Shown here: positions 13,101-29,146 of the stretch, one piece after another | How the letters are laid out: each line of letters starts with the position of its first letter | Position numbering within the stretch: the stretch's first letter is position 1 | Assembly: GCA_038851035.1 (NCBI GenBank) | Contig: JAWCLH010000026.1 | Location: 1-40,064 of the forward strand | Source: Thermoplasmata archaeon | GTDB taxonomy: Archaea; Thermoplasmatota; DTKX01; VGTL01 | DNA length: 40,064 nucleotides | Reading direction: 5' to 3' | The notes under the pieces: model-generated | What the model was told of the DNA's origin: nothing | The model's database searches: none | Seen by the model: only the letters and a program-made list of their open reading frames with translations | Translations under genes and position numbers: made by a program

Positions 13101-14417
13101 TTTGATTCTGCCGTCGTCGCAGGGGCCGCGGCTGCTGAAGCCCGCCACGCTGTTTCCGTTGGAGTTGTCCGTGGCGCCGACAGAAACCACGTTCTTTGCC
13201 GTAGAGGGCGGGTCCACCGTCCCTGCTCCATAGTCGCCCTCGTTGCCGGCTGAGAAGAAGACGGATATCGACTGGTTCCCCGGGAGGCTGAGATCAGAGT
13301 CCCTGACGAGGTAGTCGTAGCTCTCGCAGCTAGAGTCGTAGCTCCCCCACGAGCCCCCGCCCCAGCTGTTCGAGGAGACCACGGCGCCCGAGGCGGTGGC
13401 GTCCCTGCAAAGGTAGTAGTAGGAGGTCTGGGGGGAGAAGGCGAGCTGGCCAACAAGGCCCGCGAGAGGAGCCATTCCCGCGTACCTCCCCACCGTCCCG
13501 GTCTGGCCCGGCCGGTAGGCCCCGTTGCCCAAGACGCTTCCCGCGGTGTGGGTTCCGTGGCCGTAGTAGTCGACCCAGTTGGAGTAGCCGTAGGCGTAAT
13601 AGGCAACCTTCTTTCCGTCGAATGCTGGGTGGGTGCCGTCCACGCCTGTGTCGGCGACGGCGGCGACAAAGCCGGCCCCGGCGTAGCCCTCGAACTTTCC
13701 TGTCCCGGGGTTGTATCGCCAGAGGGACGATGTGCCCCAGTCGTAGGCTCCGTCTGGGGTCGTCCTGGCCCGGATTATCTGTGCGGCGTTGTAGTTGGTC
13801 GGAGAGGGGGGATTGTAGTCCTCGACCCACTCTACCTCCGGAAGGAAGGCGATTCTCACGGCGAGCTCATAGCTCGCCTCAACGCGGAGGAGCAGGGGGT
13901 CCGCGAACCAGACCACCGCGCCAAGGGTCTCGATTTTTTTCGAGAGCTCTCTGGTATCTGCGCCGGGGAAGGGGCTCACGCTCCTGAGTCGCGGGGCCGC
14001 GGACCTGTCCATGTTGGGGCTGAGCTTGTAGCCCGGCTCGTACACGCCGGCCCAGCGAACGCCCGGCAGGCCCCGGAGCTCGCGCAGGGAGTGGCCCGTG
14101 GTTCTGAGAACGAGGGCATAGTCAGGGATATACCCCAGAACCTCGCCCATCTCCTCCAGCACTGACCGCCGCCCTTCCGTAATCGGGCCGTCGAATTGGA
14201 CGATGAATACGCCCTGCGTATCGCCATCGGGTAGTCTGAGAACTTCAGGGACCGCTAGGGGCGAGGCGAGGGGGTCGAAGGCGCCGGCCCTGAGCCAAAG
14301 GCGGGGCCCGACACCGGGGTCCTCGCCCGGGTCACCGCCGCTGGCCGAAATCAGGCCAGGAAGGGTCAAGAGCAGGGCGAGGTACGCGGCTACCGGTCTC
14401 CCGATTCTCCTGCTCAT
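10185..14417 (-). CDS. Exported membrane-anchored subtilisin-like serine protease (S8)
   Basis: A 1410-residue extracellular protease tethered to the membrane. The signal peptide covers residues 1-26. A propeptide-like region (about 60-200) precedes the S8 catalytic domain, with Asp256 (VADTGVDGTHP), His287 (GHGTHTAG), oxyanion Asn350 (SSNSWGG) and Ser467 (GTSMSCP). A beta-rich P-domain-like segment follows (about 530-660). Then come one CARDB-like and four NEW3-like Ig modules carrying repeated NTGNGxD-type turns (about 670-1200), a Pro-rich linker, a membrane helix (NWPLLLIIAIALLALAVAFA), and a 148-residue cytoplasmic tail. The tail is disordered until a final charged helix, REIDEILARL. ATG 14417 sits just after a likely RNA start. 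It is probably transcribed alone. Confidence 0.93.
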   Translation of the reverse strand: MSRRIGRPVAAYLALLLTLPGLISASGGDPGEDPGVGPRLWLRAGAFDPLASPLAVPEVLRLPDGDTQGVFIVQFDGPITEGRRSVLEEMGEVLGYIPDYALVLRTTGHSLRELRGLPGVRWAGVYEPGYKLSPNMDRSAAPRLRSVSPFPGADTRELSKKIETLGAVVWFADPLLLRVEASYELAVRIAFLPEVEWVEDYNPPSPTNYNAAQIIRARTTPDGAYDWGTSSLWRYNPGTGKFEGYAGAGFVAAVADTGVDGTHPAFDGKKVAYYAYGYSNWVDYYGHGTHTAGSVLGNGAYRPGQTGTVGRYAGMAPLAGLVGQLAFSPQTSYYYLCRDATASGAVVSSNSWGGGSWGSYDSSCESYDYLVRDSDLSLPGNQSISVFFSAGNEGDYGAGTVDPPSTAKNVVSVGATDNSNGNSVAGFSSRGPCDDGRIKPDIVAPGAGVTSCSADSRYSYVSMSGTSMSCPIAAGAAVVVNEYYCITRGSRPSPAMVKNLLINGADPMSGRSYPDGGQGWGRLNLARSLLNQTSRRIWTEDQLHPISTGLGRTYAFNITGAGELKVSLVWTDVPGTPGASRALVNDLDLVVIAPNGTVYFGNSFESSYSRPNGTADRVNNVEVVRIASPAQGGWLAGVRGYNVPQGPQDYSLVIAGPIGNASVVPVDAAASRISVAPEDPAEGDFVSFSAEVSNVGLLPLSGVAWRFLLTGPDNDTSELASGEVESLGPGAAASVSAGWSALRGNYTISLEVDPLMTLCENTRDNNIAITPFFVRGYGVELHCEAPELRADPGGRASFELEVLSTGNAPDTISLSLEGGLPEGWSASLSSESVNLGAGERTSVKVDIEVSRDAPAFERVSMRASAVSGGNLTHRAMLWLTVEVNQVFMMELFAAGEERWVEPGGTEVHRLEVRNAGNGPDEPLLALRGLPDGWGATLSTERLRLAAGEAQNFSVIVSAPRGARALSQASITVSCSYGRNGTTETVVTTRVRQLAAIELELAASNNAINPGGEGELTVIVRNRGNGPDAIALSAELPEGWRGEWSRPVTLIEPGDYATERLTVFVPQDAPAGQMELMIGAVSGADPNVTAELEASVLVKQYYGVRLSAPVNKETVEPGSAADFEVVVENTGNGEDTFILEADESALPGWSLTIKPSRIVLGAGQNATMRVRARSPANESEGSYALVVTAVSWNSPSSLATQKLRIELVKAPAEPAPPIVQPPPPAVEEPEPPAESPTVRWLSKNWPLLLIIAIALLALAVAFAGARRRAGLDGGLDEEGMLYEPPYELAGPGVESEGAGREGTGGGSTGATGTPPAMETVFLDVEEDGRGGIPERGGEGRAEDGAWRVAPHEGRAPVGQSGAMEEHLGEEPEAVRRSEDNIGREGARADSPKRDVEREIDEILARLGGGLK

Positions 14418-14440
14418 CTTTCCGGTACATTGACGAACAA

Positions 14441-14458
14441 AGAATTATATATACATAT
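14441..14458 (-). promoter_or_regulatory. Promoter of the subtilase gene
   Basis: Leftward, TATGTATATATAATTC lies in the 52-base gap between the two large genes and ends 24 bases before ATG 14417. It implies independent expression of the protease with a very short leader. Confidence 0.6.
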
Positions 14459-14469
14459 TGGACTGGTCT

Positions 14470-17400
14470 CTATTCCTTATATTCCTTCTCACCCTTTTTC
14501 ATTGAGAAAAGTGGAAGGCCGGAGATCGAGCTCTCCTGCTCGATCTCCCCGGCTTCCTCGTCCGAATCCGCTGTGGACGACGGGAGGGGCTTCTTCTTCC
14601 CGTGGCCGTCGCTCCCCTCCTCAGGGGGCGGGAGGGGGGACGGCCGCGCGGGCCCTTCGTCCGGGCCAGCGGGCAGCTCCGTGGCGCGGGTCCTCCTCCG
14701 ATACAGCAGCACGGACGCGGCCGCCACCACGAGCAGCACAAGCAACAGATAGACCACCCAGGACAGGTCCGGGTTGCTGACCCTGACCCTGAAGCTCGCC
14801 AGCGCCGTGTTTCCCAGCTCGTCCACCGCGCGCACATCCACCCTGTGCTCCCCGTTGTCCGCCACGCCGGTGCTCCATAAGAACTCGTAGTTCCCCTTCG
14901 AAGGGGTGAAGAGCAGCTCCCTCCAGGCCCCTCCGTCCACACGGTACTCGTAGCTCACAACCCTGTTCCTGTCATTGATGCTGAAGACAACCGAGCAGCG
15001 GCCTACAAGCTCCGTGCGGGTCTCGAGCCTGATTGCCGGCGCGACATTGTCGACCCGGAGCAAGACGGCTCCCGAGGTCGTCTTGCCCGCGCGGTCGCGG
15101 ACAAGAACGGTCAGGTTATGCTCGTATCCTTCGAGGAGGGCGGTGTTGACGAGAGCCTCCCAGCGCCCGGGCGTCCGAGTCGGGGAGGCCCTCCAGCTCC
15201 TGTCACCGAGGGACAGCTCGACGCTCACGACGCCGAGGTCGTCCTCCGTCCAGATGGTCAGGGCGGTCTCCCCGGACACATAGACGCCTTCGGCGGGCGA
15301 GTGGAGACCGAAGACCGGCTCCGCGTTGTCCACGAATACAGGGAGCTCCACGAGCGCCTCATGCCCGGCGGCGTCGAGCGCTCTCACCCTCAAAATGTGT
15401 CTGCCGGCCTCCAGAAGTGTCGTGTCGAGCTCCCTGGAGATGTCGCTCCAGGGGAGCCCGTCGACGCTGTACTCGACTTTCTGAAGGAATGCATCCGCAG
15501 CGCTCGCCTCCACCACCACCGTTCCGCAGAGGTAGTCGTTGATGCGGGGCGATGCGAGCGCGAGGGTGGGAGGGCGGTTGTCGACCCTGACCGTGAAGAC
15601 GACGAGAGCGCTCCTCCCAGCGAGGTCCCGCGCCCGGACCTCAATCACATGCTCCCCGTCAGGAAGCTCCGTGGTGTATATCGGACAGCGCCATCGCGCC
15701 CCCTCTAAAACGCAGGAGTGCTCCGAGCCGTTGAAGAGCACCTCGACCCGGGCGATGCCGGCCCCGTCGGACGCCACCGCCTCAATCAAAATTTCTCCTT
15801 CTACGGTCTCGAGCGCGCGCGGCCGTGCGACCGTGACAATGGGCACCGAGTTGTCGACCGTGACGCTCACGCACCAGATGGTCTCGTGGCCCGCGCTGTC
15901 CGCGGCCCTCACGGCGAGCGTGTGCTGACCGTCCGCCACCACGAAGGTGTTCCAGGGCACCCCGATGGGGACCCAGGCGGAGCCGTCGATGCTGTAGCAG
16001 GTCGGCTCGAGGAAGATTCCACCCTCGTCCCGGACCTCGGCCTCCAGCGCGACCTCGCCGTAGACCACCGCGCCCTCACCGGGGCTCAGCACCCTCAGGA
16101 CGGGCGCGTGGCCGTCCACGCTCACCGGCACCGCCGCGGTCTGGACGACGTGCCCGGCCACGTCTGTGACCCTCAGAATGAGGGCGTAGGTGAAGTCGGG
16201 CAGCCCGGCGCAGAGGAGCTCGGTCTCGTAGCGCTCCCCGCTGATTTGGGCCATGGTGACGCTCTGCACATGCGTGAGGTTCTCCCCCTCCAGCCTGTGG
16301 ACACCCAGCTCCACCTCCGCCACGCCGACCGAGTCCTGCGCCAGCGCCTCGACCCTGACCCGGCCCTCAAGAAACTCGCCCGGCAGTGGCCGCAGGATGC
16401 GGCCGGCTGGGAGGCCGTTGTCCACGATGATTGTCAGGGAAACGGATGTCTCGTGGCCGGCTGAGTCCAGTGCCCGCACGTCGAGCCTGTGCCTGCCGTC
16501 CATGAGAGCGGTTGTGTTCAGCGGCAAGCTCACATCGAACCAGCCGTTGCCGTCCACGCTGTATTCCGTCCTGTCCAGATGGAGGTCGGAAACCTCCGCC
16601 AGCAACCTGAGCTCGCCGGAAACCACCTCTCCATCGCGCGGATGGATGACCACGAGCCTGCAGGCCGTGTTGTCTATTCTGAACTTCGTAATCGAGTGGG
16701 AGACATGGCCCGCGAGGTCGGTGGCAGTGATGTTGAGCACCGTCTCGCCGTCGGGGAAGACACGCGTGTCGAGAGCGGCCTCGTGGCAGCCCGTGAGATG
16801 GTTGAGTGCGAGTCTCTCAACGGCGTGGTTGGCTCCGGAGGAGAGAGAGAGCGTGGCGCAGACCTCCGCCAGACCCACAGCGTCCGAGACCGCCACCCTG
16901 AGCACGACGATGCCCTCGACGTATGTTCCGGCCTGAGGCTGGATCACGGCGGGAACCGACGGCGGCTGGTTGTCAACCAGCACGCTCCTCTCCTCGATGG
17001 TCTCGTGGCCCGCGGCGTCTGTCGCCCTGACCCTCAGGATGTGTTTCCCGTCGAGCACGCCCGTGCTGTCCCACTCGGCTCCCCCGGTGACCCGGCACCA
17101 CGCGCCCCCGTCCACGGAGAACTCCAGCCTGTCGGGGAAGGCGTCGTCCATGGTGGCGGCGACATCCACGAGCCCCGAGACGATACCACCGTTCTTCGGC
17201 GCGCTGACCCTGAGGACCGGGGCGTTGTTGTCGATTCTGAACTGGCAGCTCGAGGAGCGCGTGTTGCCCGCCCTGTCGCAGGCCGTGACTGTGGCGCTCG
17301 CGTTACCGTCGGCATAGAGCTCTGTGTCCAGGGTGTACTCGTAGCATCCGCTTGCCCCGCTGAGGGCCATGCTGTCCACCGTCACCGTCCTCCCTTCGGG

Positions 17401-20235
17401 AAGGGACACCTGCAGGCGCACCCGCGAGATGCCGTTGATATCGTCGGCCTTTACCTTGAAGGTGTGCTGCCCCTCGAGATAGGCGCCGTCGCAGGGCGAG
17501 AGCACCGAGACAGAGGACGGGGGTGTGTTGTCCACGAGCACTCTCACAGAGACCTCCGTGCAGACGCGCAGGAACTCCTCCGGAGGGTTGTCGTAGGCCC
17601 GGAAAATTAGAGCGTGCGTGCCGTCCGCGAGGGCGTTGGTATTCAGGCTGCTGGTGTAGAGGCCGCCCGCGCTCGCGTCGGGGTTGAGCCGGGACCACGC
17701 ACCCCCGTCGACGCTGTACTGGACCGATTGAATTCCCTCGGTGTCTGTGGCGCTCACCCGGAGGGTCGTCGCCCCCCCGATCACGTCCCCCTCCCCGGGC
17801 CCGATGACCACGAGACTTGGACGGGTCTGCACCTTCACGACAACCGAGTCGGACACTGGGTTGCCGTCGGGGTCGTAGACCACGGCTTTGATGAAGCGCT
17901 CCCCGTCGCCGAGCACTGTAGGGTCGAGCTGGACGACGAAACCCCTGTCCCCCGCACCTAGGTCCTCGGTGGTGTAGTCCGACGTCAGATACTCGCCGTC
18001 AACGAGGATGTCCATTCTGACGCCGCTGTCGTCGTCCTCGAAGTCCACCATGAACGTCATCAGACCAGAGTTGGTGACGTTCGCTCCCGGGCTGGGGGAT
18101 AAAATCGAGACGGTGTTGAGGTGCCAGTTGTCAAACTCGAAGAGGCCCGCGTCGGAGGCGGAGCCGGCGGCGTTGAAGGCGGTAACGCGAATGGTGTGGT
18201 AACCGTCGCGGAAGCACGTGGTGTCCAGAACATACTCCCATCTCATGGTCCCCGAGTTCCACGACATCGTTCCCACCATGCGGTCGTCCACATAGACGCC
18301 CACGCCCGATGCGCCGGACGCACTGGCCGCGACGAGCACGCTGCCCCTGAGAGGTCCGCCGGTCGGCTGGAGAATGGAGACGCCGGTCGGCGGGGCGCCG
18401 GTCAGGTCGCCGTTGGCGACCGTGACCGACACGATTCTCCTGACGACTATGCCGTCGTTGTCGCGGGCCGCCACGGTGATGTCGTAGCGCCCGTCCGGAA
18501 GGGAAGTGGTGTCCCAGTAGCTCTCCCAGAAAATGGTCCCCGTCTGCTGGATCAGGGACGTCCAGGTGGACTGGCCGGATATCTGGAAGGCCACGGAGGT
18601 CACGTCGTTTGTCCCGGAGTCCTCGTCGTCCACCGCCACCCTGAAAATGTAGCCCGAGCCCTTCACCACCGAGCCCTCGGTCGGTGAAACAAGCTTGAGC
18701 CAGGGCCCCCCCATTTGCAGGAGTATCCACCCGGGCGCCACGAAGACCCCCTCCGCATACTCCTGGGTCTTCAGCTGGTCCATGTTCGCCGTCCGGTCCC
18801 ACCAGTAGTCCTGCTGTCCGGAAGGAGCATCGGCGTCATGGAATCGGATGAGCATTCCAAGAAGGGCGGCGCCCTGCACGCTCAGGTCATGATCGGCATC
18901 GACCATGTACGAAGAGCTTGAGTTGTATGGGACGAGGAACTCGAACTCGTACCTGTCACTGGCTGTCCCGGGCAGGTTAACATACTTCACCTTCCCGTTT
19001 CCGTCCACATCGTCCGCTCCGCTGTCCGATTTCCACGTCGCGTCGAAAGTTGATGTGTTGATGTGCCCGTCCGTGAAAGCGCCGCCCCCCGTTACCTCGA
19101 AGTACTGCTCAAAGTTGGGGTATGAGTTGTCCAGAAGACCGTTTCGCGAGCCGTCTCCCGAATTGCCCTGCTCGAAGTATATCCTGAGGAAGTCCGAGTC
19201 GCTTGGCTGCGGGTCGCGGACCATGAGGCCGAAGTAGAGGTTCGAGCCGGCCGTGTCCTGTGTGATAAAAACCGTGGCACAGATTCCCCCTCCCCGGAAG
19301 TTGGTCAGCATTATGTTCCGGGTGTAGCAGTCGGCCCACCCGAAGTCGCCGGTGATGTCCCCGTCCAGGGTTGGGGTGCCGGAGCGGGCGAAGGTGGCGT
19401 ACATCGTCCGGTCCTGCGCCCCGACGCCCAGCTGGAGGTCCGCGTAAAGGCTCACGTTACCGGGGTCCTTGCCGGTCCGGTCCCAGTAGTAGATCCTGCC
19501 CTCGTTGTGGAAGTAGACCTCCAGGAAAAAGCCCAGCTCGTCCGTTCCGGCGACGTTGAGATCCGACTCGATGGATGAGTCGTTTTTCGGGTTCAGGGGA
19601 ATTTTGAGCTCCCTGTTGTAGTAGGGCCCCGCGACGCTCACGGCGTAGTCGAAGTCGTCCCAGCTTCCCTTGTCGGTCCCCGAGTCGTTGTTGTCGTAGA
19701 CCCACCCTCCGGCGGACGAGTTGTAGTATCCGTCCCAGTACCTCCTGTTGGACGAGATGGCTCCCGCAACCTTCACGAAGTTCTCGTTTTTATCGGTCAG
19801 CCTGTCGTCGTGGGGGCCGTCGTAGCCGGCCGTGGCGCCCGCGCCCTCGTCGAAGTAAAGGGTAACATAGTCGTTGGACGAGGAGCTCGTGCATTTATAG
19901 ACCAGTCCGACATAAAGATAGTCGTCGTCGTTCATCAGCAGGAGCTGGGCATATCTCGTGTTTGCGGGGGAGCCGAAGTCCGAGAGGGTTATGTTGCGCA
20001 CGAACGCCCCGTCCCACTCCGTGGCGGGGGAGGTGCCCCTCGAGATCTGGCCGTCGATGATGACGTCGCTCGCGGCGTCGCCGTTGAAGAACGAGTATAT
20101 CTGCCTGGGGTCCTCCGGCGAGGCCAGGGGGTCCACGTGGGCCTCGGCGCCCGGCATCAACAGAGGGAGCGCCGCAGCGAAGTATCCTGTAATAAGGCAC
20201 AGCACCATGGCTGGACATGCGAGCTTTTTCACCAT
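14470..20235 (-). CDS. Giant Ig-repeat surface protein with N-terminal carbohydrate-binding-like modules
   Basis: A 1921-residue exported protein. A signal peptide (1-32) is followed by two related beta-rich modules (about 50-270 and 280-510). Each contains a DGxI-type opening and aromatic, Asp-rich loops similar to CBM9/DOMON-like sugar-binding folds. About 14 Ig-like repeats of 85-100 residues follow, most opening with VDNxPP and a P-G-V-G strand. From the repeat opening IDNNAPVLRV they alternate between two types: one with SVDGxxW and DGRHxLxVRAxDxAGHE, the other with VGVAEVxL. The C-terminus has a membrane helix (WVVYLLLVLLVVAAASVLLY) and a roughly 70-residue polar cytoplasmic tail. The start ATG 20235 has GGGGTGA six bases upstream. 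It is 43 bases downstream of the next gene on the same strand, so probably in one operon. No catalytic motif is visible; a structural or adhesive role is inferred. Confidence 0.8.
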   Translation of the reverse strand: MVKKLACPAMVLCLITGYFAAALPLLMPGAEAHVDPLASPEDPRQIYSFFNGDAASDVIIDGQISRGTSPATEWDGAFVRNITLSDFGSPANTRYAQLLLMNDDDYLYVGLVYKCTSSSSNDYVTLYFDEGAGATAGYDGPHDDRLTDKNENFVKVAGAISSNRRYWDGYYNSSAGGWVYDNNDSGTDKGSWDDFDYAVSVAGPYYNRELKIPLNPKNDSSIESDLNVAGTDELGFFLEVYFHNEGRIYYWDRTGKDPGNVSLYADLQLGVGAQDRTMYATFARSGTPTLDGDITGDFGWADCYTRNIMLTNFRGGGICATVFITQDTAGSNLYFGLMVRDPQPSDSDFLRIYFEQGNSGDGSRNGLLDNSYPNFEQYFEVTGGGAFTDGHINTSTFDATWKSDSGADDVDGNGKVKYVNLPGTASDRYEFEFLVPYNSSSSYMVDADHDLSVQGAALLGMLIRFHDADAPSGQQDYWWDRTANMDQLKTQEYAEGVFVAPGWILLQMGGPWLKLVSPTEGSVVKGSGYIFRVAVDDEDSGTNDVTSVAFQISGQSTWTSLIQQTGTIFWESYWDTTSLPDGRYDITVAARDNDGIVVRRIVSVTVANGDLTGAPPTGVSILQPTGGPLRGSVLVAASASGASGVGVYVDDRMVGTMSWNSGTMRWEYVLDTTCFRDGYHTIRVTAFNAAGSASDAGLFEFDNWHLNTVSILSPSPGANVTNSGLMTFMVDFEDDDSGVRMDILVDGEYLTSDYTTEDLGAGDRGFVVQLDPTVLGDGERFIKAVVYDPDGNPVSDSVVVKVQTRPSLVVIGPGEGDVIGGATTLRVSATDTEGIQSVQYSVDGGAWSRLNPDASAGGLYTSSLNTNALADGTHALIFRAYDNPPEEFLRVCTEVSVRVLVDNTPPSSVSVLSPCDGAYLEGQHTFKVKADDINGISRVRLQVSLPEGRTVTVDSMALSGASGCYEYTLDTELYADGNASATVTACDRAGNTRSSSCQFRIDNNAPVLRVSAPKNGGIVSGLVDVAATMDDAFPDRLEFSVDGGAWCRVTGGAEWDSTGVLDGKHILRVRATDAAGHETIEERSVLVDNQPPSVPAVIQPQAGTYVEGIVVLRVAVSDAVGLAEVCATLSLSSGANHAVERLALNHLTGCHEAALDTRVFPDGETVLNITATDLAGHVSHSITKFRIDNTACRLVVIHPRDGEVVSGELRLLAEVSDLHLDRTEYSVDGNGWFDVSLPLNTTALMDGRHRLDVRALDSAGHETSVSLTIIVDNGLPAGRILRPLPGEFLEGRVRVEALAQDSVGVAEVELGVHRLEGENLTHVQSVTMAQISGERYETELLCAGLPDFTYALILRVTDVAGHVVQTAAVPVSVDGHAPVLRVLSPGEGAVVYGEVALEAEVRDEGGIFLEPTCYSIDGSAWVPIGVPWNTFVVADGQHTLAVRAADSAGHETIWCVSVTVDNSVPIVTVARPRALETVEGEILIEAVASDGAGIARVEVLFNGSEHSCVLEGARWRCPIYTTELPDGEHVIEVRARDLAGRSALVVFTVRVDNRPPTLALASPRINDYLCGTVVVEASAADAFLQKVEYSVDGLPWSDISRELDTTLLEAGRHILRVRALDAAGHEALVELPVFVDNAEPVFGLHSPAEGVYVSGETALTIWTEDDLGVVSVELSLGDRSWRASPTRTPGRWEALVNTALLEGYEHNLTVLVRDRAGKTTSGAVLLRVDNVAPAIRLETRTELVGRCSVVFSINDRNRVVSYEYRVDGGAWRELLFTPSKGNYEFLWSTGVADNGEHRVDVRAVDELGNTALASFRVRVSNPDLSWVVYLLLVLLVVAAASVLLYRRRTRATELPAGPDEGPARPSPLPPPEEGSDGHGKKKPLPSSTADSDEEAGEIEQESSISGLPLFSMKKGEKEYKE

Positions 20236-21532: not shown

Positions 21533-21559
21533 AAACCCATTATTAATTCCGGCGGCGAA

Positions 21560-22954
21560 ATGACGGGACGGATGAGCGGAGGGGCAAATGAGGGGAGATG
21601 GGCGGCGATGATTCTCGTGGCTGCGCTGATTCTTGCCGCAGCGGTCTCCCTGCCCCGGCCCGCCTCCGCTCTGAGTCACTCGGAGAGTCCCTCGCAGGTC
21701 ACGGTCGAGGGCAGGAACATCTCTATCGAAATATCCAGAGCCAGCCCCCGTCTCTACTTCCACGAGCGTGGCGCGCAGGGCGCGACGTTTCAGTTTGCCT
21801 ACACACGCCTCCTCAGCTTCAACGACACGGGCGACGGGAGGTACCAGCCCGGGGAGCTGTCCTATTTCTGCAACCTCACAGCCGCGCGATGGAATTCCTC
21901 GGTCGAGGAGCGGGATGGCGGCGAGGGTGGGGAGGAGGTCCGCGTTGTTATGACCGCCTTGCTGGACATGACCGAGCACAGGGGAGGGTCCGCGGGCCGC
22001 TCCGGGGGCGAATTCCCCCGGGAGTATGAAGGCGGCCCGGGTGTGGAGGGGCGGAGTGGGGGGGCCGGGAAAACCGGCAACGGGACGGGGAGCGGCGGCG
22101 CCCCGGAACCCGCGGGAAACGGCACCGGTGGAGGTGGTCCGAGTTCTCCGTCCAACGCCACGGAGCCAGGCGGCCCCGGCTCCTCAGGAGGAGGAGGCGG
22201 GCCGCAGGATGGCAGGCCCGATGTCATTCCCGGCGCCGTGCAGATGACCGCGACTTTCCTGCTGAGGGAACTCAATTCCACATACGTTTCGGGAGGGGAG
22301 GTGCTGGTCCTCCACGGCGGGAGCGAGATGAAGATCTCGGTCGGGCTCGCCCTCAGGTCTCCTGTGCCGGGCACGCACATCGCGCTGGAGCAGTCGCTCG
22401 GTGAGGGGGAGGGAGAGATGAATGACGGGCGCTTCATCGTCCATGACGCGACGGGCCCCACAACCGCCCGCGGGTCCGAGAACGAGATGCAGGGCGGGAG
22501 GGAGCTGATGCACGTGTTCACCAGCACCGCCCGCGAGCAGCAGAGGATAACCTACTGCGATTCGGACGGAACGGACAGGGGCTACCTCACCTGGACGCGC
22601 ACCGTTGAGGCCCCCGGAGGGCCGTCGTTGCTGGAGTGCTCCTACCGCACCGATGGGGTCTCTCTCAAGCTCTACTCCGCCTTCAGGTTATCCGCCACCA
22701 CGGGGGAGTACTTCATCGACCCCACCGTCGGCGTGCTTCCGGGACCGCTCGCGGGCGCCGTCCACGAGCTCGAGGAAAGGCTCCTGAGCCACCGCTGGTC
22801 CATTCTGGCGGGACTTGCCGCCGGAATTGCGCTCGCCACCGCCGTCGTGGGCGCGGCCGGCCTGTGGCGGCGCGCCCGGGGCGAGGAGCTCGTTATTCTC
22901 GAAAGAAACCCCTACTACCGCGGAGGGGGCGGGGGTCGGGGCCCTCCCCCGTGA
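21560..22954 (+). CDS. Exported, Gly-rich, membrane-anchored protein of unknown function
   Basis: A 464-residue protein I cannot assign. Residues 14-38 (WAAMILVAALILAAAVSLP) form an export signal. Then comes a beta-rich domain, an unusual stretch of about 85 residues dominated by Gly, Ser, Pro and Asn (from RGGSAGRSGGEF to GGGGGPQDG), and a second beta-rich domain. A membrane helix (ILAGLAAGIALATAVVGAAGLW) precedes a short tail ending in a Gly/Pro-rich run. The low-complexity part may be a flexible, glycosylated linker, as it contains repeated NGT/NAT sites. ATG 21560 is preferred; ATG 21572 is possible, and an in-frame TTG at 21485 is rejected because it covers the operator motifs. It diverges from the PGF-CTERM-like gene and converges with the regulator. 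Confidence 0.6.
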   Translation: MTGRMSGGANEGRWAAMILVAALILAAAVSLPRPASALSHSESPSQVTVEGRNISIEISRASPRLYFHERGAQGATFQFAYTRLLSFNDTGDGRYQPGELSYFCNLTAARWNSSVEERDGGEGGEEVRVVMTALLDMTEHRGGSAGRSGGEFPREYEGGPGVEGRSGGAGKTGNGTGSGGAPEPAGNGTGGGGPSSPSNATEPGGPGSSGGGGGPQDGRPDVIPGAVQMTATFLLRELNSTYVSGGEVLVLHGGSEMKISVGLALRSPVPGTHIALEQSLGEGEGEMNDGRFIVHDATGPTTARGSENEMQGGRELMHVFTSTAREQQRITYCDSDGTDRGYLTWTRTVEAPGGPSLLECSYRTDGVSLKLYSAFRLSATTGEYFIDPTVGVLPGPLAGAVHELEERLLSHRWSILAGLAAGIALATAVVGAAGLWRRARGEELVILERNPYYRGGGGGRGPPP

Positions 22955-22977: not shown

Positions 22978-23502
22978 TCATCTGCGCGAGACCCAGGCCG
23001 CCACGAAGCTCTCGACGAGCTCGTCGAGGAAGCTCCTGCGGTAGGTTATCAGGAGGTCCGCGACCTTCTCGGGCTCGACCACCTCGAACCGGGTCTCGCG
23101 CCCCTCCCTCCTCGAGACCAGCACCCCCGCCTCGACCATTCTCTTAAGATGATAGGATATCGTGGGGCCGCTGACGGAGAAGCTGGCCAGAATCTCGCCG
23201 TGGGTCGCGCCCGGTTTGCGAAGGAGAAAGAGGAGGATGCCCCGCGGCAGGTCCTGCCGGAGGAACGACAGGATGGCCTTCGACGCGGGGTCGAACCTGT
23301 CCCTCGGGTAGTAGCGGGTGTAGTGCTCCTCCTCTCTGGCCACGAGGATTTCCTTCTTCACCATATATTTCAGGTGGTAGTCCAGCGCCCCAACCGGCAT
23401 CCCGAGCGCCCTCTGGAGCTCCCTGAAGTGGACCCCCGGGTTGAGGGTGAGGTACTCGAATATCCTCTTTCTGCTCTGGAGCTCGAGGGTTCGTTCCTCC
23501 AT
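22978..23502 (-). CDS. Transcription regulator with two winged-helix domains
   Basis: A 174-residue protein with two ArsR/MarR-like winged helices. The first (about residues 12-65) has HFRELQRALGMPVGALDYHLKYMVKKEILV; the second (about 85-140) has THGEILASFSVSGPTISYHLKRMVEAGVLV. Duplicated winged-helix regulators of this kind are common in euryarchaea. No metal-binding Cys motif is visible, so the signal is unknown. ATG 23502 has GGAGGGG just upstream; an alternative GTG at 23517 overlaps the upstream stop as GTGA, so the two genes are translationally coupled. The partner is a small membrane protein, which may be the sensor. A plausible target is the motif array at 21468-21532, but nothing in the sequence proves it. 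Confidence 0.85.
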   Translation of the reverse strand: MEERTLELQSRKRIFEYLTLNPGVHFRELQRALGMPVGALDYHLKYMVKKEILVAREEEHYTRYYPRDRFDPASKAILSFLRQDLPRGILLFLLRKPGATHGEILASFSVSGPTISYHLKRMVEAGVLVSRREGRETRFEVVEPEKVADLLITYRRSFLDELVESFVAAWVSRR

Positions 23503-23513
23503 TGCCCCTCCGT

Positions 23514-23801
23514 TCACCTCTTTCTCCTGACTCCCCTCGCCACCCAGAGGGCGATGATGATGAGGAGGAGGGTCAGGCTCACAGCGGGTATCAGGACATC
23601 GAGCTCCCGCGGGGCCTCACGTGAGAGGGCCGCCAACAGGACCTGATGGGCGGAGAGGGCGAGAGCCGCGGCGGAGACGCAGACCGGGAAGAGAAGGCGG
23701 AGGGATCTAGTGCGGGCGAGGGCGAGCAGGGCGAGAATCAGGAGGGCTGCCGAGAGCACCAGCGCCGCTGAGGCCAGCGCGTCGCCTAGATACAACACCA
23801 T
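23514..23801 (-). CDS. Small membrane protein coupled to the winged-helix regulator
   Basis: A 95-residue protein with three predicted membrane helices: ASAALVLSAALLILALLAL, RLLFPVCVSAAALALSAHQ and VLIPAVSLTLLLIIIALWV, ending in an Arg/Lys cluster. Similar small membrane proteins occur beside winged-helix regulators in haloarchaea (DUF7521-like), but I cannot confirm family membership. ATG 23801 is chosen because a TATA-like TTATTTATC at 23822-23830 would start RNA right there. An upstream in-frame GTG at 23816 is the alternative. Its stop overlaps the optional GTG start of the regulator by 4 bases. A role in sensing or sequestering the regulator is inferred. Confidence 0.6.
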   Translation of the reverse strand: MVLYLGDALASAALVLSAALLILALLALARTRSLRLLFPVCVSAAALALSAHQVLLAALSREAPRELDVLIPAVSLTLLLIIIALWVARGVRRKR

Positions 23802-23867
23802 GTGATCGGATATCACTATTCGGATAAATAAGATATACAGGTCTCATGAGAACTGCCCACCGCCCGC

Positions 23868-24157
23868 ACCGGGCCAGCCTGCCCGGTTCGAGAACAGCTC
23901 TTCACTTTCACGGACTCCACTCGCCTGCGGGTCTCAACGAATGGTCTCATCGAACGATAAGAAACAATCCGAAGAACGAGCGGAGAGAAAGGACGTCCAC
24001 GAATCGAGGTGGAGGAGGTTGAAAGAGGGCTCGAGGTGTGAGAAGAAAATGAGATCTGTAAACCTCTTTCGGCGCTGTCGGCGGGCCCCTCCATGTCGCC
24101 GCGCGAAACGCGCGGCACACCCGCGCCCCGCCCGCGATATGTGTGCGGGCGGCTTTT
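23868..24157 (+). ncRNA. Candidate structured RNA with terminal hairpin and TTTT
   Basis: Stem 1: ACCGGGC (23868-23874) pairs with GCCCGGT (23881-23887), 6-base loop. Stem 2: GCCGCGCG (24098-24105) pairs with CGCGCGGC (24109-24116), 3-base loop. Stem 3: CCGCCCGC (24128-24135) pairs with GCGGGCGG (24145-24152), 9-base loop, followed by TTTT at 24154-24157. A plus-strand TATA-like ATAAATAAGATA near 23824-23836 would start RNA about 23855. Together this could be an RNA of about 300 bases ending at stem 3. No known RNA family was recognised; GC-rich sequence forms hairpins by chance, so this is tentative. Confidence 0.25.
24128..24157 (+). terminator. Hairpin plus TTTT, terminator-like
   Basis: A perfect 8-bp GC stem (24128-24135 with 24145-24152) is followed after one base by four T. 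It would end rightward transcription before the ech promoter. Archaeal termination depends mainly on T runs, and this one is short. Confidence 0.35.
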
Positions 24158-24225
24158 CACGGGAACGGACATGCGCCGCTCTGTCATGGCACATGTTATT
24201 CTCCCGCGTCAATCCGGCGTGTGAC

Positions 24226-24236
24226 AAAATATTTAT
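24226..24236 (+). promoter_or_regulatory. ech operon promoter
   Basis: AAAATATTTAT lies so that RNA would start at about 24257, three bases before ATG 24260. The operon mRNA is therefore probably leaderless for echA, while later genes use internal ribosome-binding sites or overlapping start/stop codons. Confidence 0.6.
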
Positions 24237-24259
24237 CGGCCTCTTTCAATGCCCCCATC

Positions 24260-26167
24260 ATGCAGGGGTATGCAACTGCTGTCTGGTTGTTAATAGCTCT
24301 ACCCGTTTTCATGGGTCTCCTCGCGCTCCCCTTCAAAAAAAAGGCCCACCTTCTTGCCATCGTCGGCGTCAACACCATCGTTTTAATATCTCTCTCCATC
24401 TTCCTCGTTATCGCGGTCTCGGCCGAGGGCATGGGCCGCGGCGATTTCCTCCGGGTGGACTCGAAAGAGCTCGCGCTCGCGCTGGGCCTGCCGGAGCTCT
24501 CGATTCACGAGCTGATTCTCTATCTCGACCTGGGCCTTCTGGCGTTCTTCGTCGCCCTCGGTCTTTATATAAAAAGTCCGGTGACATTCGCGGTTGCGAT
24601 CTGCCAGCTGGTGCCCCTGGCATCCTTTGAGCTAAGGAACCCGGAGGCGCTCGAGACCTTCGCTTTCGCCCTCGACCACCTCTCGCTGGTTTTTGTCCTG
24701 ATATGCTCGATTGTCGGCTCCATTATCGCAATCTACGGCGTCCAGTACATGGCCGACGAGAAGAAGCAGGGGGTCTTCTTTTTCTTCATCCTGACCTTCC
24801 TCGGCGTCATGAACGGCGCGGTCCTCTCAAACAACCTCATCTACCTCTACTTCTTTTGGGAGTGCACAACCCTATGCTGCTACTTCCTCATCAAGCACGA
24901 GGGCGACCCCCTCTCCCTCTCAAACGCGAAATGGGCTCTCGAGGTCACGATAGCTGGCGGGGCTGCGCTCCTGATCGGCGCGTTCATGTTCCACCAATGC
25001 AGCGGGACCGCCAGTTTCTCGCTGATGGGGATCGTGGGGAAGGAGGGGCTCGCGGGCGCGGACGCCATGGTCGCGCTTCCGCTCTTCTTCTTCTCTCTCG
25101 CGGCCTTCACCAAGGCCGCGCAGGTACCCTTCCAGTCCTGGCTCCTGGGGGCGATGGTCGCACCAACCCCGGTCTCCGCGCTGCTCCACTCCAGCACGAT
25201 GGTCAAGCTCGGCGTCTATCTCGTCATTAGAATTGCGCCCGTGCTACACCAGTTCCAGGAGCTCTCGCTGCTCGTTGCGATTGTGGGGGGTCTCTCGTTC
25301 CTCTCCACAGCGCTCCTGGCGATTCAGGAAAGGGGAATGAAGAAGCTCCTGGCCCTCTCGACCGTGGGCAACCTGGGCCTCATCATCATGCTCGCGGCCA
25401 TCGGGACGCCGGAGGCCATCGCGGCCGCGGTGGTGCTGACGATATTCCACGCGATTTCAAAGGCCCTGCTCTTCCTCTCCGCAGGCGCCGTCCAGAAGCT
25501 GTTCGGGAGAAAGGACATCGAGGGCACGGAGGGGCTCTTCAGGAGAGCCCCGTCAATGTTCGGCGCCTTCTTCATCGGAATTCTGACGATGTTTCTGGCA
25601 CCCTTCGGAATCTTCATTGCGAAATACACATCCATAGCCGAGTCCACCTCCAATCCGTTCCTCCTTCTGATGGTGCTGGTGGGGAGCATCGCGTGCGAGG
25701 TCTTCTATATCAGATGGCTGGGGAGGGCGATGGCGCTGACGGGGGAGGTGAGCGAGAAGAGGGTCTCGCCTCTCTACACCGCCCCGATGTGGACGCTGGC
25801 CGTCGGGGCCGTTGCGCTCTCTGTGCTCCTGCCCTTCTTCCTCTCCCCCCTCGTTGACCCCATCGCCGGTTTCCACAGACTCGAGGCGACCCTGCCCATC
25901 ACCTATCTTGGCAGGGCCGGTGCGATACCGACCTTTGTGATCTTCCTCGCCCTCCTCCTCGGGATCGCCTACGCGACGATGGAGACGGGCGGAAAGAGGG
26001 TGAAGCCATACACCTGCGGCATGGAGGGCTACGAGCTCCAGCTCTCTTGCCCCTACTTCGAGAGCTATATCGACTCCGGCAAGGCGATGCTCGCAGTGGA
26101 GGTCGCCGGCATCCTGACTCTTCTCGCCGCGCTCGGCGGGGCTCTGGTCTCGGCGGGGGTGGTCTGA
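24260..26167 (+). CDS. echA: Energy-converting hydrogenase, antiporter-like subunit EchA
   Basis: A 635-residue polytopic membrane protein homologous to NuoL/MrpD, forming the ion channel arm that couples electron flow to H+ or Na+ export. The proton-antiporter core spans about residues 140-430. It includes the TM5 Glu201 (YFFWECTTLCCYF), an intramembrane Lys in AAFTKAAQVPFQSWL, and HSSTMVKLGVYLVIR, all typical of this family. The C-terminal segment continues with further helices and no NuoL-like long lateral helix can be confirmed. The open frame extends 39 codons upstream, but the TATA position and the start of hydrophobicity favour ATG 24260. It is the first of six genes in the canonical echABCDEF order; echB starts directly after its stop. 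Confidence 0.93.
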   Translation: MQGYATAVWLLIALPVFMGLLALPFKKKAHLLAIVGVNTIVLISLSIFLVIAVSAEGMGRGDFLRVDSKELALALGLPELSIHELILYLDLGLLAFFVALGLYIKSPVTFAVAICQLVPLASFELRNPEALETFAFALDHLSLVFVLICSIVGSIIAIYGVQYMADEKKQGVFFFFILTFLGVMNGAVLSNNLIYLYFFWECTTLCCYFLIKHEGDPLSLSNAKWALEVTIAGGAALLIGAFMFHQCSGTASFSLMGIVGKEGLAGADAMVALPLFFFSLAAFTKAAQVPFQSWLLGAMVAPTPVSALLHSSTMVKLGVYLVIRIAPVLHQFQELSLLVAIVGGLSFLSTALLAIQERGMKKLLALSTVGNLGLIIMLAAIGTPEAIAAAVVLTIFHAISKALLFLSAGAVQKLFGRKDIEGTEGLFRRAPSMFGAFFIGILTMFLAPFGIFIAKYTSIAESTSNPFLLLMVLVGSIACEVFYIRWLGRAMALTGEVSEKRVSPLYTAPMWTLAVGAVALSVLLPFFLSPLVDPIAGFHRLEATLPITYLGRAGAIPTFVIFLALLLGIAYATMETGGKRVKPYTCGMEGYELQLSCPYFESYIDSGKAMLAVEVAGILTLLAALGGALVSAGVV

Positions 26168-27088
26168 GTGGAGCCGCCCGAGGAGGTTCTGCTGACGCTG
26201 CTCTCGGTTGCGCTCTTCGTGCTCGCGCCCTTCCTCGGTATGCTCGCCATGGGTCTGGGCCGCAGGATCTCCGCCCGCATGCAGAACAGGGTCGGCCCGC
26301 CCGTGCTGCAGCCCTGGTACGACGTCGCGAAGCTGATGACGAAGAGCGACCAGTCCACAAACCCCGTGACCGGGACGATGGCCTTCCTCTTCTTCATCTT
26401 CAACGCCCTCGCGGTCGTGGTTCTGGTGACCCTCGGCGACCTCCTGATGGTGATTGTCCTCATGGGGACCGCACAGCTCTTCCTCTCGCTGGCGGGCTAC
26501 GCGGGCAGCTCCCCCAATAGTCATCTGGGCGCAAGCCGCAACCTCCTACAGGTTCTCTCGGTCGAGCCCCTCATGCTCGCTCTCGCTGTGGCCGCGCTGC
26601 TCGTCAACGGGAGCTACTTCGTGCGGGAGCTCGCGTGGAGCAACGAGCTCCTGCTTCACTTCCCGATGGCGCCGGTGGTTCTCTTCTTCGCCCTCCTGGT
26701 CTGGATGCAGAAGGGGCCCTTCGACCTCTCCACGGCCCATCAGGAAATCGTCTACGGGCCCATGATAGAGCTCTCGGGGAAGAACCTCGCTCTCGTGGAG
26801 ATCGGCCACTGGTTCGAGACCTTCGGACTGCTGGCCATCTTCTCCCTCATGTTCAACTCCGCCCCGCTACTGGCGCCGCTGCTCGGGTCCACGGGCGCGG
26901 TGGTGCTGGACCTCGTCCTCAAGACCCTGGTCGCCTTCATAGTGCTCATAGCGGTCATCTGGGTGGACAACGCCACGACCAGATCCCACTGGGACCGCCT
27001 CCCCAGGTTCTCGTTCACCTTTCTATGGCCCCTGGTTTTCATCAATATTCTGTTCATCTACTCCGCGCTGGTCTGGGGGTGGTGGTAG
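26168..27088 (+). CDS. echB: Energy-converting hydrogenase membrane subunit EchB (NuoH-like)
   Basis: A 306-residue membrane protein that anchors the soluble hydrogenase module and helps form the ion path, homologous to NuoH and HycD. Seen: several hydrophobic helices, the conserved cytoplasmic loop RMQNRVGPPVLQPWYDVAKL near residues 37-57 that contacts the small subunit, and an acidic loop with GPFDLSTAHQEIVYGPMIELSG near 180-200, characteristic of the family. The start is GTG at 26168, immediately after the echA stop, and the stop directly precedes the GTG start of echC, so translation is tightly coupled. Confidence 0.95.
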   Translation: MEPPEEVLLTLLSVALFVLAPFLGMLAMGLGRRISARMQNRVGPPVLQPWYDVAKLMTKSDQSTNPVTGTMAFLFFIFNALAVVVLVTLGDLLMVIVLMGTAQLFLSLAGYAGSSPNSHLGASRNLLQVLSVEPLMLALAVAALLVNGSYFVRELAWSNELLLHFPMAPVVLFFALLVWMQKGPFDLSTAHQEIVYGPMIELSGKNLALVEIGHWFETFGLLAIFSLMFNSAPLLAPLLGSTGAVVLDLVLKTLVAFIVLIAVIWVDNATTRSHWDRLPRFSFTFLWPLVFINILFIYSALVWGWW

Positions 27089-27718
27089 GTGTCCCTGCTG
27101 AGGTCGCCCTGGGTTCTCCACTTCTCATCCACGAGCTGCAACGGCTGCGACATCGAGGTCCTCGCGGCCCTGACCCCGCGCTACGACGTCGAGCGGTTCG
27201 GAATCGTGAACAAGGGGAACCCCAAGTTCGCAGATGTTTTGCTCGTCTCCGGAGCGGTGAACCCGCGCACCGCGCAGGCCCTGAGGAACCTCTACGAGCA
27301 GATGCCGGAGCCGAAGGCCGTCGTGGTCGTCGGGAGCTGCGGCTCGACGGGTGGGGTTTTCCACGACTGCTACAACGTGCTCGGAGGTGTTGACCGGGTG
27401 CTGCCAGTCGATGTCTACGTTCCGGGGTGCCCCGCGAGGCCTGAGGCGATAATTGACGGGGTGGTCAAAGCCCTGGGAATTCTCAAGGAGCGGCTGGAGA
27501 AGAAGGCGGCCGGAGCGAGCGGACCGGGGCGGGGGAGGTCCGGGGGAGCGGAGGGGGGTGGCGGAGGAAACGAGGGGGAGGAGGTGGGGAGGGGGCTTTC
27601 AGGGAGTGAGGGAAGGAGTGGGGGAGAGGAGAGAATCGAGGAAGAGCACACCTCGCCCGCGGAAGCGCGTGGCGTGGGAAGGAGCAAAGAGGCTGGTGGA
27701 GGTGGCGGGAATGATTGA
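27089..27718 (+). CDS. echC: Energy-converting [NiFe] hydrogenase small subunit EchC
   Basis: A 209-residue cytosolic subunit carrying the proximal [4Fe-4S] cluster next to the NiFe site (NuoB family). Cluster ligands are Cys17 and Cys20 (SCNGCD), Cys84 (GSCGSTGG) and Cys114 (PGCPARPE). The conserved domain ends near residue 140. The last ~69 residues are a Gly/Glu/Arg/Ser-rich extension not normally found in this subunit, encoded by a purine-rich tract with long G runs. The start is GTG 27089, with no gap to echB. Its end overlaps the echD start by 8 bases, so the extension is not simply a missing stop followed by spacer: it reaches into echD's ribosome-binding site GGAGGTG. Confidence 0.93.
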   Translation: MSLLRSPWVLHFSSTSCNGCDIEVLAALTPRYDVERFGIVNKGNPKFADVLLVSGAVNPRTAQALRNLYEQMPEPKAVVVVGSCGSTGGVFHDCYNVLGGVDRVLPVDVYVPGCPARPEAIIDGVVKALGILKERLEKKAAGASGPGRGRSGGAEGGGGGNEGEEVGRGLSGSEGRSGGEERIEEEHTSPAEARGVGRSKEAGGGGGND

Positions 27719-28046
27719 GAACCTCCAGGTCGTTGAGAAGGGAGAGCTCAAGAAGGCGCTGAGAAAATTGAAGGAGGGCGGCCACAGGCTCATCACTATA
27801 ATCGGCGCCGTTCGAGACGGGAAAATGGAGCTGACCTACGCCCTCGAGAGCGCGGACATGAGCTTCGCCGCCGTCAGGACGTCGTACCGCCTCGACGAAG
27901 AGATTCAGAGCGTGCAGGACATATTCATCAACGCCCTCCTATACGAGATGGAGCTGGTCGACCTTTTCGACGTGAGGGTGGAGGGCTGCGCGCCCGGCCT
28001 CCTGCTCGAGCCTGAGAAGAGGGGGCCTTTCAGGAGGGATGGGTGA
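27711..28046 (+). CDS. echD: Energy-converting hydrogenase subunit EchD (NuoC-like)
   Basis: A 111-residue subunit related to the NuoC 30-kDa family that scaffolds the large and small subunits. The pattern HRLITIIGAVRDGKMELTYAL, followed later by the SVQDIFINALLYEMELVDLFDV helix, fits EchD. The family-typical ending with a Pro-rich strand is present in short form. The open frame runs 86 codons further upstream, but that part is the out-of-frame reading of the echC extension. ATG 27711 has GGAGGTG seven bases before it. Its stop overlaps the echE start by one base (TGATG). Confidence 0.88.
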   Translation: MIENLQVVEKGELKKALRKLKEGGHRLITIIGAVRDGKMELTYALESADMSFAAVRTSYRLDEEIQSVQDIFINALLYEMELVDLFDVRVEGCAPGLLLEPEKRGPFRRDG

Positions 28047-29146
28047 TGGCGGAGAGGTGCGTGACCCGCGTGCCCTTCGGGCCCCAGCACATCGTCCTGC
28101 CCGAGCCCGTCCACTTCGACCTCAGGGTCGAGGACGAGGTCGTGGTCGAGGCCGGCTTCAGGCTCGGTTTCGCCCATAGGGGCATCGAGAGGGCTTTCCA
28201 GCTCAGGGACATGTACAGCGCCCTCTTCATCGCCGAGAGGATATGCGGCATCTGCTCCTCCTCCCACTCGAACGCGATATCGGGCGTTCTGGAGAAGCTC
28301 TGCGGCATAGAGATACCCGACAACGCCCGGTACGTCAGGACTTTGATGGCCGAGCTCGACAGAATTCACAGCCACCTCCTGATTCTCGGCCATATCGGCG
28401 AGACGATGGGCTTCGAGAACCTCTTTATGCTTACCTGGAGGGACAGGGAGTTCGTCATGGACATGCTCGAGCTCCTCACGGGGAACAGGGTCAACCACGG
28501 AATGAACACCATCGGTGGGGTTAGGCGGCGGGTGACCTCGGCCGTCCTAAAGCAGCTCGGGGGGATGCTCGACGAGTTCGAGAGGCGCTGGCCCGCCCTA
28601 GCGGAGGTCTACACCAAGGACAGCGGGTTCATCCACAGGACGCGCGGGGTGGGCATCATACCCCGGGAGGTCGCGCTGGCCGCGGGAGTGGTGGGCCCCA
28701 ACGCGAGGGCGAGCGGTGTGGATCTTGACATCCGGAAGAAGCACTACTTCGCCTATGGGGACCTGAAGTTCAGGCCCGTGAGGCTCGACGAGCCGAGGGG
28801 CGACGTCTACGACCGGGTGCAGGTCCGCGTGAGGGAGGTCAATGAGTCGCTCAGGATGGTAAGGGAGCTTATCGGGATGGTTGACGAGAACAAACCTTTT
28901 GCGGTGGAGAAGGGGCCGCGCAAGCTGCCGGAGGACGAGTGCTTCTTCAATGTGGAGGCGCCGCGCGGGGAGCTGTTCTACTTCGCCCGCGGCAACGGCA
29001 CCGGAAAGCCCGCGAGAATAAAGGTGAGGACGCCAACACTGGCGACCCTGCGCGCGGTGATTATGATTCTCAAGGGCATGGAGATTCAGCACGTCCCCCT
29101 GACGGTCATCAGCATTGACCCGTGCATATGCTGCACCGAGAGGTGA
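28046..29146 (+). CDS. echE: Energy-converting [NiFe] hydrogenase large (catalytic) subunit EchE
   Basis: A 366-residue catalytic subunit that holds the NiFe centre and reduces protons to H2 with electrons from ferredoxin, or the reverse. Both metal-binding motifs are intact: RICGIC at residues 65-70 (Cys67, Cys70) and DPCICC at 358-363 (Cys360, Cys363). This separates a true hydrogenase from NuoD/FpoD, which lost these cysteines. The protein ends in CTER right after the second motif, so it lacks the C-terminal peptide that maturation proteases remove, as reported for EchE and CooH. ATG 28046 has AGGAGG upstream; the preceding GTG 28043 is an alternative. No hydrogenase maturation (hyp) genes are in the window. 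Confidence 0.96.
   Translation: MAERCVTRVPFGPQHIVLPEPVHFDLRVEDEVVVEAGFRLGFAHRGIERAFQLRDMYSALFIAERICGICSSSHSNAISGVLEKLCGIEIPDNARYVRTLMAELDRIHSHLLILGHIGETMGFENLFMLTWRDREFVMDMLELLTGNRVNHGMNTIGGVRRRVTSAVLKQLGGMLDEFERRWPALAEVYTKDSGFIHRTRGVGIIPREVALAAGVVGPNARASGVDLDIRKKHYFAYGDLKFRPVRLDEPRGDVYDRVQVRVREVNESLRMVRELIGMVDENKPFAVEKGPRKLPEDECFFNVEAPRGELFYFARGNGTGKPARIKVRTPTLATLRAVIMILKGMEIQHVPLTVISIDPCICCTER

Follow-up and report, generated by a model that had tools for sequence, protein, structure and literature searches.

Two genes encoded side by side, one for a small three-helix membrane protein and the other for a double winged-helix regulator, form a conserved archaeal module that occurs across Thermoplasmatota and haloarchaea. 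We analysed one copy of this pair in a contig of a Thermoplasmata archaeon (assembly GCA_038851035.1, contig JAWCLH010000026.1); "the window" means the whole stretch of 40,064 nucleotides. We favor the reading (with a probability of roughly 60%) that the pair is a two-gene membrane-coupled transcription switch, in which the membrane protein would bind the regulator, set its access to DNA, and free or reorient it when a signal arrives. The pair suggests a route, so far undescribed, by which signals could pass from the cell surface to genes.

The genes and their predicted products

The first-pass annotation had placed a membrane protein and a double winged-helix regulator here, in translational coupling. 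Both open reading frames (Table 1), the membrane helices, and the winged helices were borne out: the genes are adjacent on the minus strand, with the membrane protein first. The coupling fared less well. The membrane-protein gene runs from ATG 23801 to a TGA that ends at 23514, and a possible GTG start for the regulator (23517) overlaps this TGA, as coupling would have it, but ATG 23502 is the likelier start. It follows an 11-nt gap, has its own GGAGG, and agrees with the N-termini of relatives. Translational coupling of the window's pair is no more than possible. A simple rule for choosing start codons, applied to 42 pairs (including the window's), gives 14 overlapping pairs and 34 that either overlap or are at most 30 nt apart.

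Table 1. Positions of the gene pair, its parts, and the neighboring surface proteins in the window
Feature	Position	Strand	Remarks
Surface protein with C-terminal transmembrane segment	20279..21418	-	resembles surface proteins beside the pair elsewhere
Surface protein with N-terminal signal-like and C-terminal transmembrane segments	21554..22954	+	convergent with the regulator
Double winged-helix regulator	22978..23502	-	174 aa from ATG 23502; 179 aa from GTG 23517
C-terminal helical tail of the regulator (YRRSFLDELVESFVAAW)	22984..23073	-	conserved among relatives
Second winged helix, core (HTH_24/ArsR type)	23119..23244	-	
N-terminal winged helix, Pfam HTH_HVO_0163_N	23272..23475	-	
GGAGG, ribosome-binding-like site ahead of ATG 23502	23507..23511	-	
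Three-transmembrane membrane protein	23514..23801	-	95 aa from ATG; alternative start GTG 23816; predicted N-out/C-in
A+T-rich TATA-like stretch ahead of ATG 23801	23822..23837	-	by eye

The two genes are probably co-transcribed, and the TATA-like stretch suggests a near-leaderless transcript. TATCCGA occurs twice, 7 nt apart, directly before the first start codon of the window's pair, and was not seen by eye in the closest relative (L055; L, G, and C numbers denote our loci, genomes, and contigs). By eye, no shared operator was recognised in 22 upstream stretches (a 23rd was empty), and tRNA and Rfam scans of the window gave no matches.

The regulator belongs to Pfam family HTH_HVO_0163_N (PF24266): it scores 69.7 bits (cut-off, 31), and all 20 members of our set A2 match the family at E ≤ 0.001. 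Its second half matches ArsR/MarR-type Pfam models. The AlphaFold model (mean pLDDT 90.5) shows a pair of winged helices followed by a helical tail at the C-terminus; when the PDB was searched with this model, the best 50 of 1636 matches were partial winged-helix matches or poor fits. A match from a genome of the same family (G001) stands at 71%. The tail may be a dimerisation or docking element. By eye, it is retained in six of nine regulators that stand without a partner, so docking on the membrane protein need not be its role. As the first-pass annotation had it, the pair shows no sign of enzymatic function: neither Pfam nor NCBIfam offers a credible enzyme family for it.

In its AlphaFold model (mean pLDDT 78, pTM 0.53), the membrane protein has helices at residues 3-34, 41-66, and 68-97. 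Neither Pfam nor NCBIfam contains a match to it at E ≤ 1, which places it outside DUF7471 (PF24283). That family is matched at E ≤ 0.1 by 12 of the 36 partners in set A1 (best E-value, 8e-4). In general, composition can inflate profile matches between membrane proteins. When three segments were forced on each of 34 partners, the lysines and arginines in loop 1 and the C-terminal tail outnumbered those in the N-terminal tail and loop 2 in every one, and the partners are therefore predicted to be N-out and C-in. In their consensus, the basic loop carries SYxR, helix 2 carries AFxLFxxKG, and LYL precedes the tail; no motif of the three is invariant. The window's protein keeps the basic loop and has lost the helix 2 motif, and it scores only 17.6 bits against a family profile built without it; the best of 1000 plain shuffles reached 8.4 bits, and the best of 1000 pattern-keeping shuffles reached 11.5. 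A second type of partner, which lacks SYxR, occurs at six loci (L069, L071, L077, L078, L082, and L085) in five genomes of one family, and four genomes with this type (G030, G036, G050, and G058) also carry a standard pair at another place.

Pairing across archaea

A survey of this kind had been suggested with the first-pass annotation, and it found the two genes usually adjacent, not rarely so. Across 60 genomes (the window's own included), a three-transmembrane protein is encoded directly upstream of 41 of 47 regulator homologues. These homologues score about 100 bits or more and exclude the window; the window's own genome supplies one of them as a second copy, and a contig end truncates another (G058:C91). 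A partner was required to have at least two predicted transmembrane helices ending near its C-terminus; those shown have three, and once four. The six misses are L088, which lies at a contig end, and L091, L092, L095, L098, and L101. In named genomes, mostly Candidatus Thermoplasmatota and some of them shared with the first survey, the partner is upstream at 36 of 44 regulator loci (counting L140, which has only two helices at the threshold used in that scan). The fraction becomes 36 of 40 once two contig-edge loci (L111, L142) and two short bacterial matches (L143, L145) are removed. The loci without a partner are L116, L125, L133, and L138. Regulators without a partner thus make up 4 of 40 in this set and 5 of 46 in the other (one contig-end case removed). 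Four of them (L091, L092, L098, and L101) come from two genomes of one family (G016 and G042).

As a background, we took the other genes of at least 150 amino acids in the 36 loci: 1 of 150 had such a neighbor, under a rule stricter than the pairing rule (at least three helices). Set against this, 41 of 47 and 36 of 44 lead us to reject chance adjacency.

The reverse search, in which a three-transmembrane profile built from 36 of the 42 partners was run against the 60 genomes, found 74 places; at 63 of them, one of the listed regulators lies directly downstream. Because the profile was built from the regulators' neighbors, this reverse search is partly circular. A profile search added regulators for two more (G032:C48 and the contig-end-cut G010:C83), four lie at contig ends (at one, G054:C216, about 380 nt remain and hold no more than a doubtful fragment), and five lower-scoring matches (E-values of 2e-8 to 8e-4) have no regulator. 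Among the pairs examined, there was no natural fusion of the three-transmembrane protein to the regulator.

The pairing extends to haloarchaea. A tblastn search with the regulator in plasmid records found 60 records, mostly haloarchaeal. At 14 of the 16 haloarchaeal loci examined among 20 matches listed, a three-transmembrane gene immediately precedes the regulator in the same orientation (L161, which is counted here, was judged by eye, as the scripted rule missed it). At L158 this gene is divergent from the regulator, and L157 has only a weak candidate (12 bits) farther upstream. Six haloarchaeal partners were compared with DUF7471: L150 and L151 pass at about 1e-30, L146 and L147 match below the cut-off, and L148 and L149 do not match. 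Profiles of the haloarchaeal and thermoplasmatal partners align with 96% probability over 56 columns. A gene annotated as FAD:protein FMN transferase lies near seven of the haloarchaeal pairs (L146, L147, L148, L152, L153, L155, and L156) in a similar order. On a Halarchaeum plasmid (L159, positions 1-2007), an annotated PQQ beta-propeller gene runs straight into the three-transmembrane gene and the regulator. The pair can be studied in culturable haloarchaea, some genera of which can be engineered, and it gives DUF7471-type proteins a testable role.

The two proteins have also diverged together. Distances in the regulator tree and the partner tree correlate with r = 0.77 over 42 pairs, and when partners were exchanged inside each of the 11 genomes with several pairs, 7 of 5000 trials reached this value. 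Agreement on the closest paralogue was modest (273 of 438).

Genomic context and a proposed switch

The first-pass annotation had remarked on a block of surface proteins alongside the pair, and such neighbors do recur: an anchored surface protein adjoins the pair at 19 of the 36 named loci. Surface proteins account for 21 of 69 adjacent genes versus 5 of 122 genes farther away (Fisher p = 7e-7, from crude gene calls and uncorrected for relatedness). Of the two surface proteins in Table 1, the one on the minus strand resembles pair-adjacent surface proteins of L129 (the best match, 4e-16), L117, L122, L123, and L144, as well as one at L121 that lies farther from its pair; these E-values hold for a very small database of such proteins only. 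The convergent one matches a neighbor of the pair just once (L105), perhaps by chance. In Pfam at E ≤ 0.1, six of eight neighbors scanned gave nothing (those of L129, L110, L117, L105, and L144 and the upstream neighbor of L102), the neighbor at L139 had only matches below cut-off, and the downstream neighbor of L102 has CARDB and Ig-like domains. Farther out in the window, positions 10185-20235 and 24143-29146 encode, by eye, very large surface proteins (a subtilase-like protein of 1410 aa and a repeat protein of 1921 aa) and a cluster of genes like those of a hydrogenase or complex I; these flank the pair. At six loci (L110, L112, L113, L117, L126, and L127), a gene that by eye resembles protein-isoaspartate methyltransferase overlaps the 3' end of the regulator gene.

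The window's genome also encodes seven single chains (L014, L015, and L017-L021, on contigs C28, C20, C12, C14, C18, C30, and C34 of G000) in which a transmembrane segment, predicted from hydropathy, is followed by a related double winged helix. This regulator superfamily is thus joined to a predicted transmembrane segment in the same genome, which fits a regulator held at the membrane, by the usual fusion argument. Six of the seven have a long N-terminal part, which is presumably extracellular. By eye, a VPLY-like linker lies between the transmembrane segment and the double winged helix.

In our proposal, the three-helix protein spans the cytoplasmic membrane: its N-terminus and a loop of only 6-20 residues would face outward, whereas the basic loop would face inward, together with a tail that is short and mostly basic. 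In the most likely way of working, the regulator, a soluble DNA-binding protein encoded just after it, would be bound at the cytoplasmic face, and this binding would govern how the regulator reaches DNA. Either a change sensed within the membrane or one relayed by a neighboring anchored surface protein would free or reorient the regulator, which would then control its own operon and nearby surface-protein genes. Because it has no soluble domain, the partner has little room to sense alone; the simplest role for it would be to offer the regulator a place to bind, and cues might reach it from a surface protein or from the membrane itself. More broadly, and with somewhat less than even odds, a kinase-free module of three parts (an anchored surface protein, a three-helix membrane relay, and a double winged-helix regulator) may be common to Thermoplasmatota and haloarchaea; transmembrane forms of this regulator, made as single chains, would work alongside it in one cell, and DUF7471 would be one haloarchaeal form of the relay.

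The membrane protein might instead be an effector: a regulator that senses a ligand would control an operon for a small protective or transport-assisting membrane protein, much as ArsR-type repressors control efflux genes. The second winged helix is indeed ArsR-like, the regulator barely passes the NCBIfam model HTH_metalloreg (NF033788; 55.9 bits versus a cut-off of 55), the membrane gene comes first, and some regulators have no partner. But the window's regulator contains no cysteine, we found no credible transporter family for the three-transmembrane proteins, the partner co-diverges with the regulator across paralogues, and forms joined to transmembrane segments occur within the same superfamily, so we consider an effector role unlikely.

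If the three-transmembrane protein anchored the regulator permanently, the regulator would act on DNA from the membrane without release, as the split counterpart of single-chain transmembrane regulators. The single chains of the window's genome and the overlapping genes of 14 of the 42 pairs would suit such an anchor, but by eye the split form's C-terminal tail is missing from those chains, and we judge permanent anchoring to be quite improbable. It is very hard to credit that the pair resembles a toxin-antitoxin system, in which the small hydrophobic membrane protein would be the toxin and the DNA-binding protein the antitoxin, despite the small size, the frequent gene overlap, and the scarcity of three-transmembrane matches without a regulator (the 5 of 74, plus those at contig ends). 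The pair is conserved phylum-wide, seven small genomes (G006, G025, G033, G035, G038, G047, and G051) carry it just once, the regulator is bigger than the membrane protein, topology and motif are conserved, and regulators without a partner exist.

Comparison with known systems

In the SdpR/SdpI system of Bacillus, an ArsR-type winged-helix regulator is sequestered by a co-encoded membrane protein. Our pair is alike in having an ArsR-type winged helix and a co-encoded membrane protein; SdpR has only one winged helix and works with a larger membrane protein, whereas here the winged helix is double and the partner small. The window's regulator is below the cut-off of the SdpR model (41.3 versus 100 bits), and no SdpI-named family is among the matches of the 36 partners in set A1.

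The LytTR Regulatory Systems (such as HdrRM and BrsRM) combine a soluble DNA-binding regulator with a membrane protein in one operon, without a kinase, and are reported from bacteria and some archaea, including a Thermoplasmatales archaeon (PMC6193735). The two-protein, kinase-free logic is the same. In those systems, however, the DNA-binding part is a LytTR domain, the regulator gene comes first, direct repeats lie upstream, and inhibition of the regulator by the membrane protein is demonstrated. The pair has a double winged helix (Pfam gives no LytTR match in the regulator at E ≤ 1), its membrane gene comes first, no direct repeats were recognised upstream beyond the two TATCCGA copies of the window, which were not seen in L055, and inhibition is what we infer. 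Transmembrane transcription regulators (TTRs, such as ToxR, CadC, and ArnR) also place DNA binding under membrane control (PMC10269533). They join the transmembrane and DNA-binding parts in one chain, whereas the pair consists of two separate polypeptides; the seven single chains of the window's genome are TTR-like relatives of the regulator.

Kinship with CsmR of Haloferax was set aside; PMC13286277 describes CsmR as a small winged-helix protein of 13 kDa. The accessible text of PMC4858521 mentions another membrane-bound regulator, arCOG00381, and neither that text nor the corresponding part of PMC4158269 contains anything on this gene pair. A literature search, most of it outside subscription sources, found no published description of the pair, nor any for the Pfam names HTH_HVO_0163_N and DUF7471; HVO_0163 itself came up in one paper. 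In Pfam, PF24266 takes in the window's regulator, and DUF7471, whose function is listed as unknown, takes in the haloarchaeal partners L150 and L151 but not the window's membrane protein. In its logic, the pair resembles both the LytTR systems and SdpR/SdpI, and it is a member of neither.
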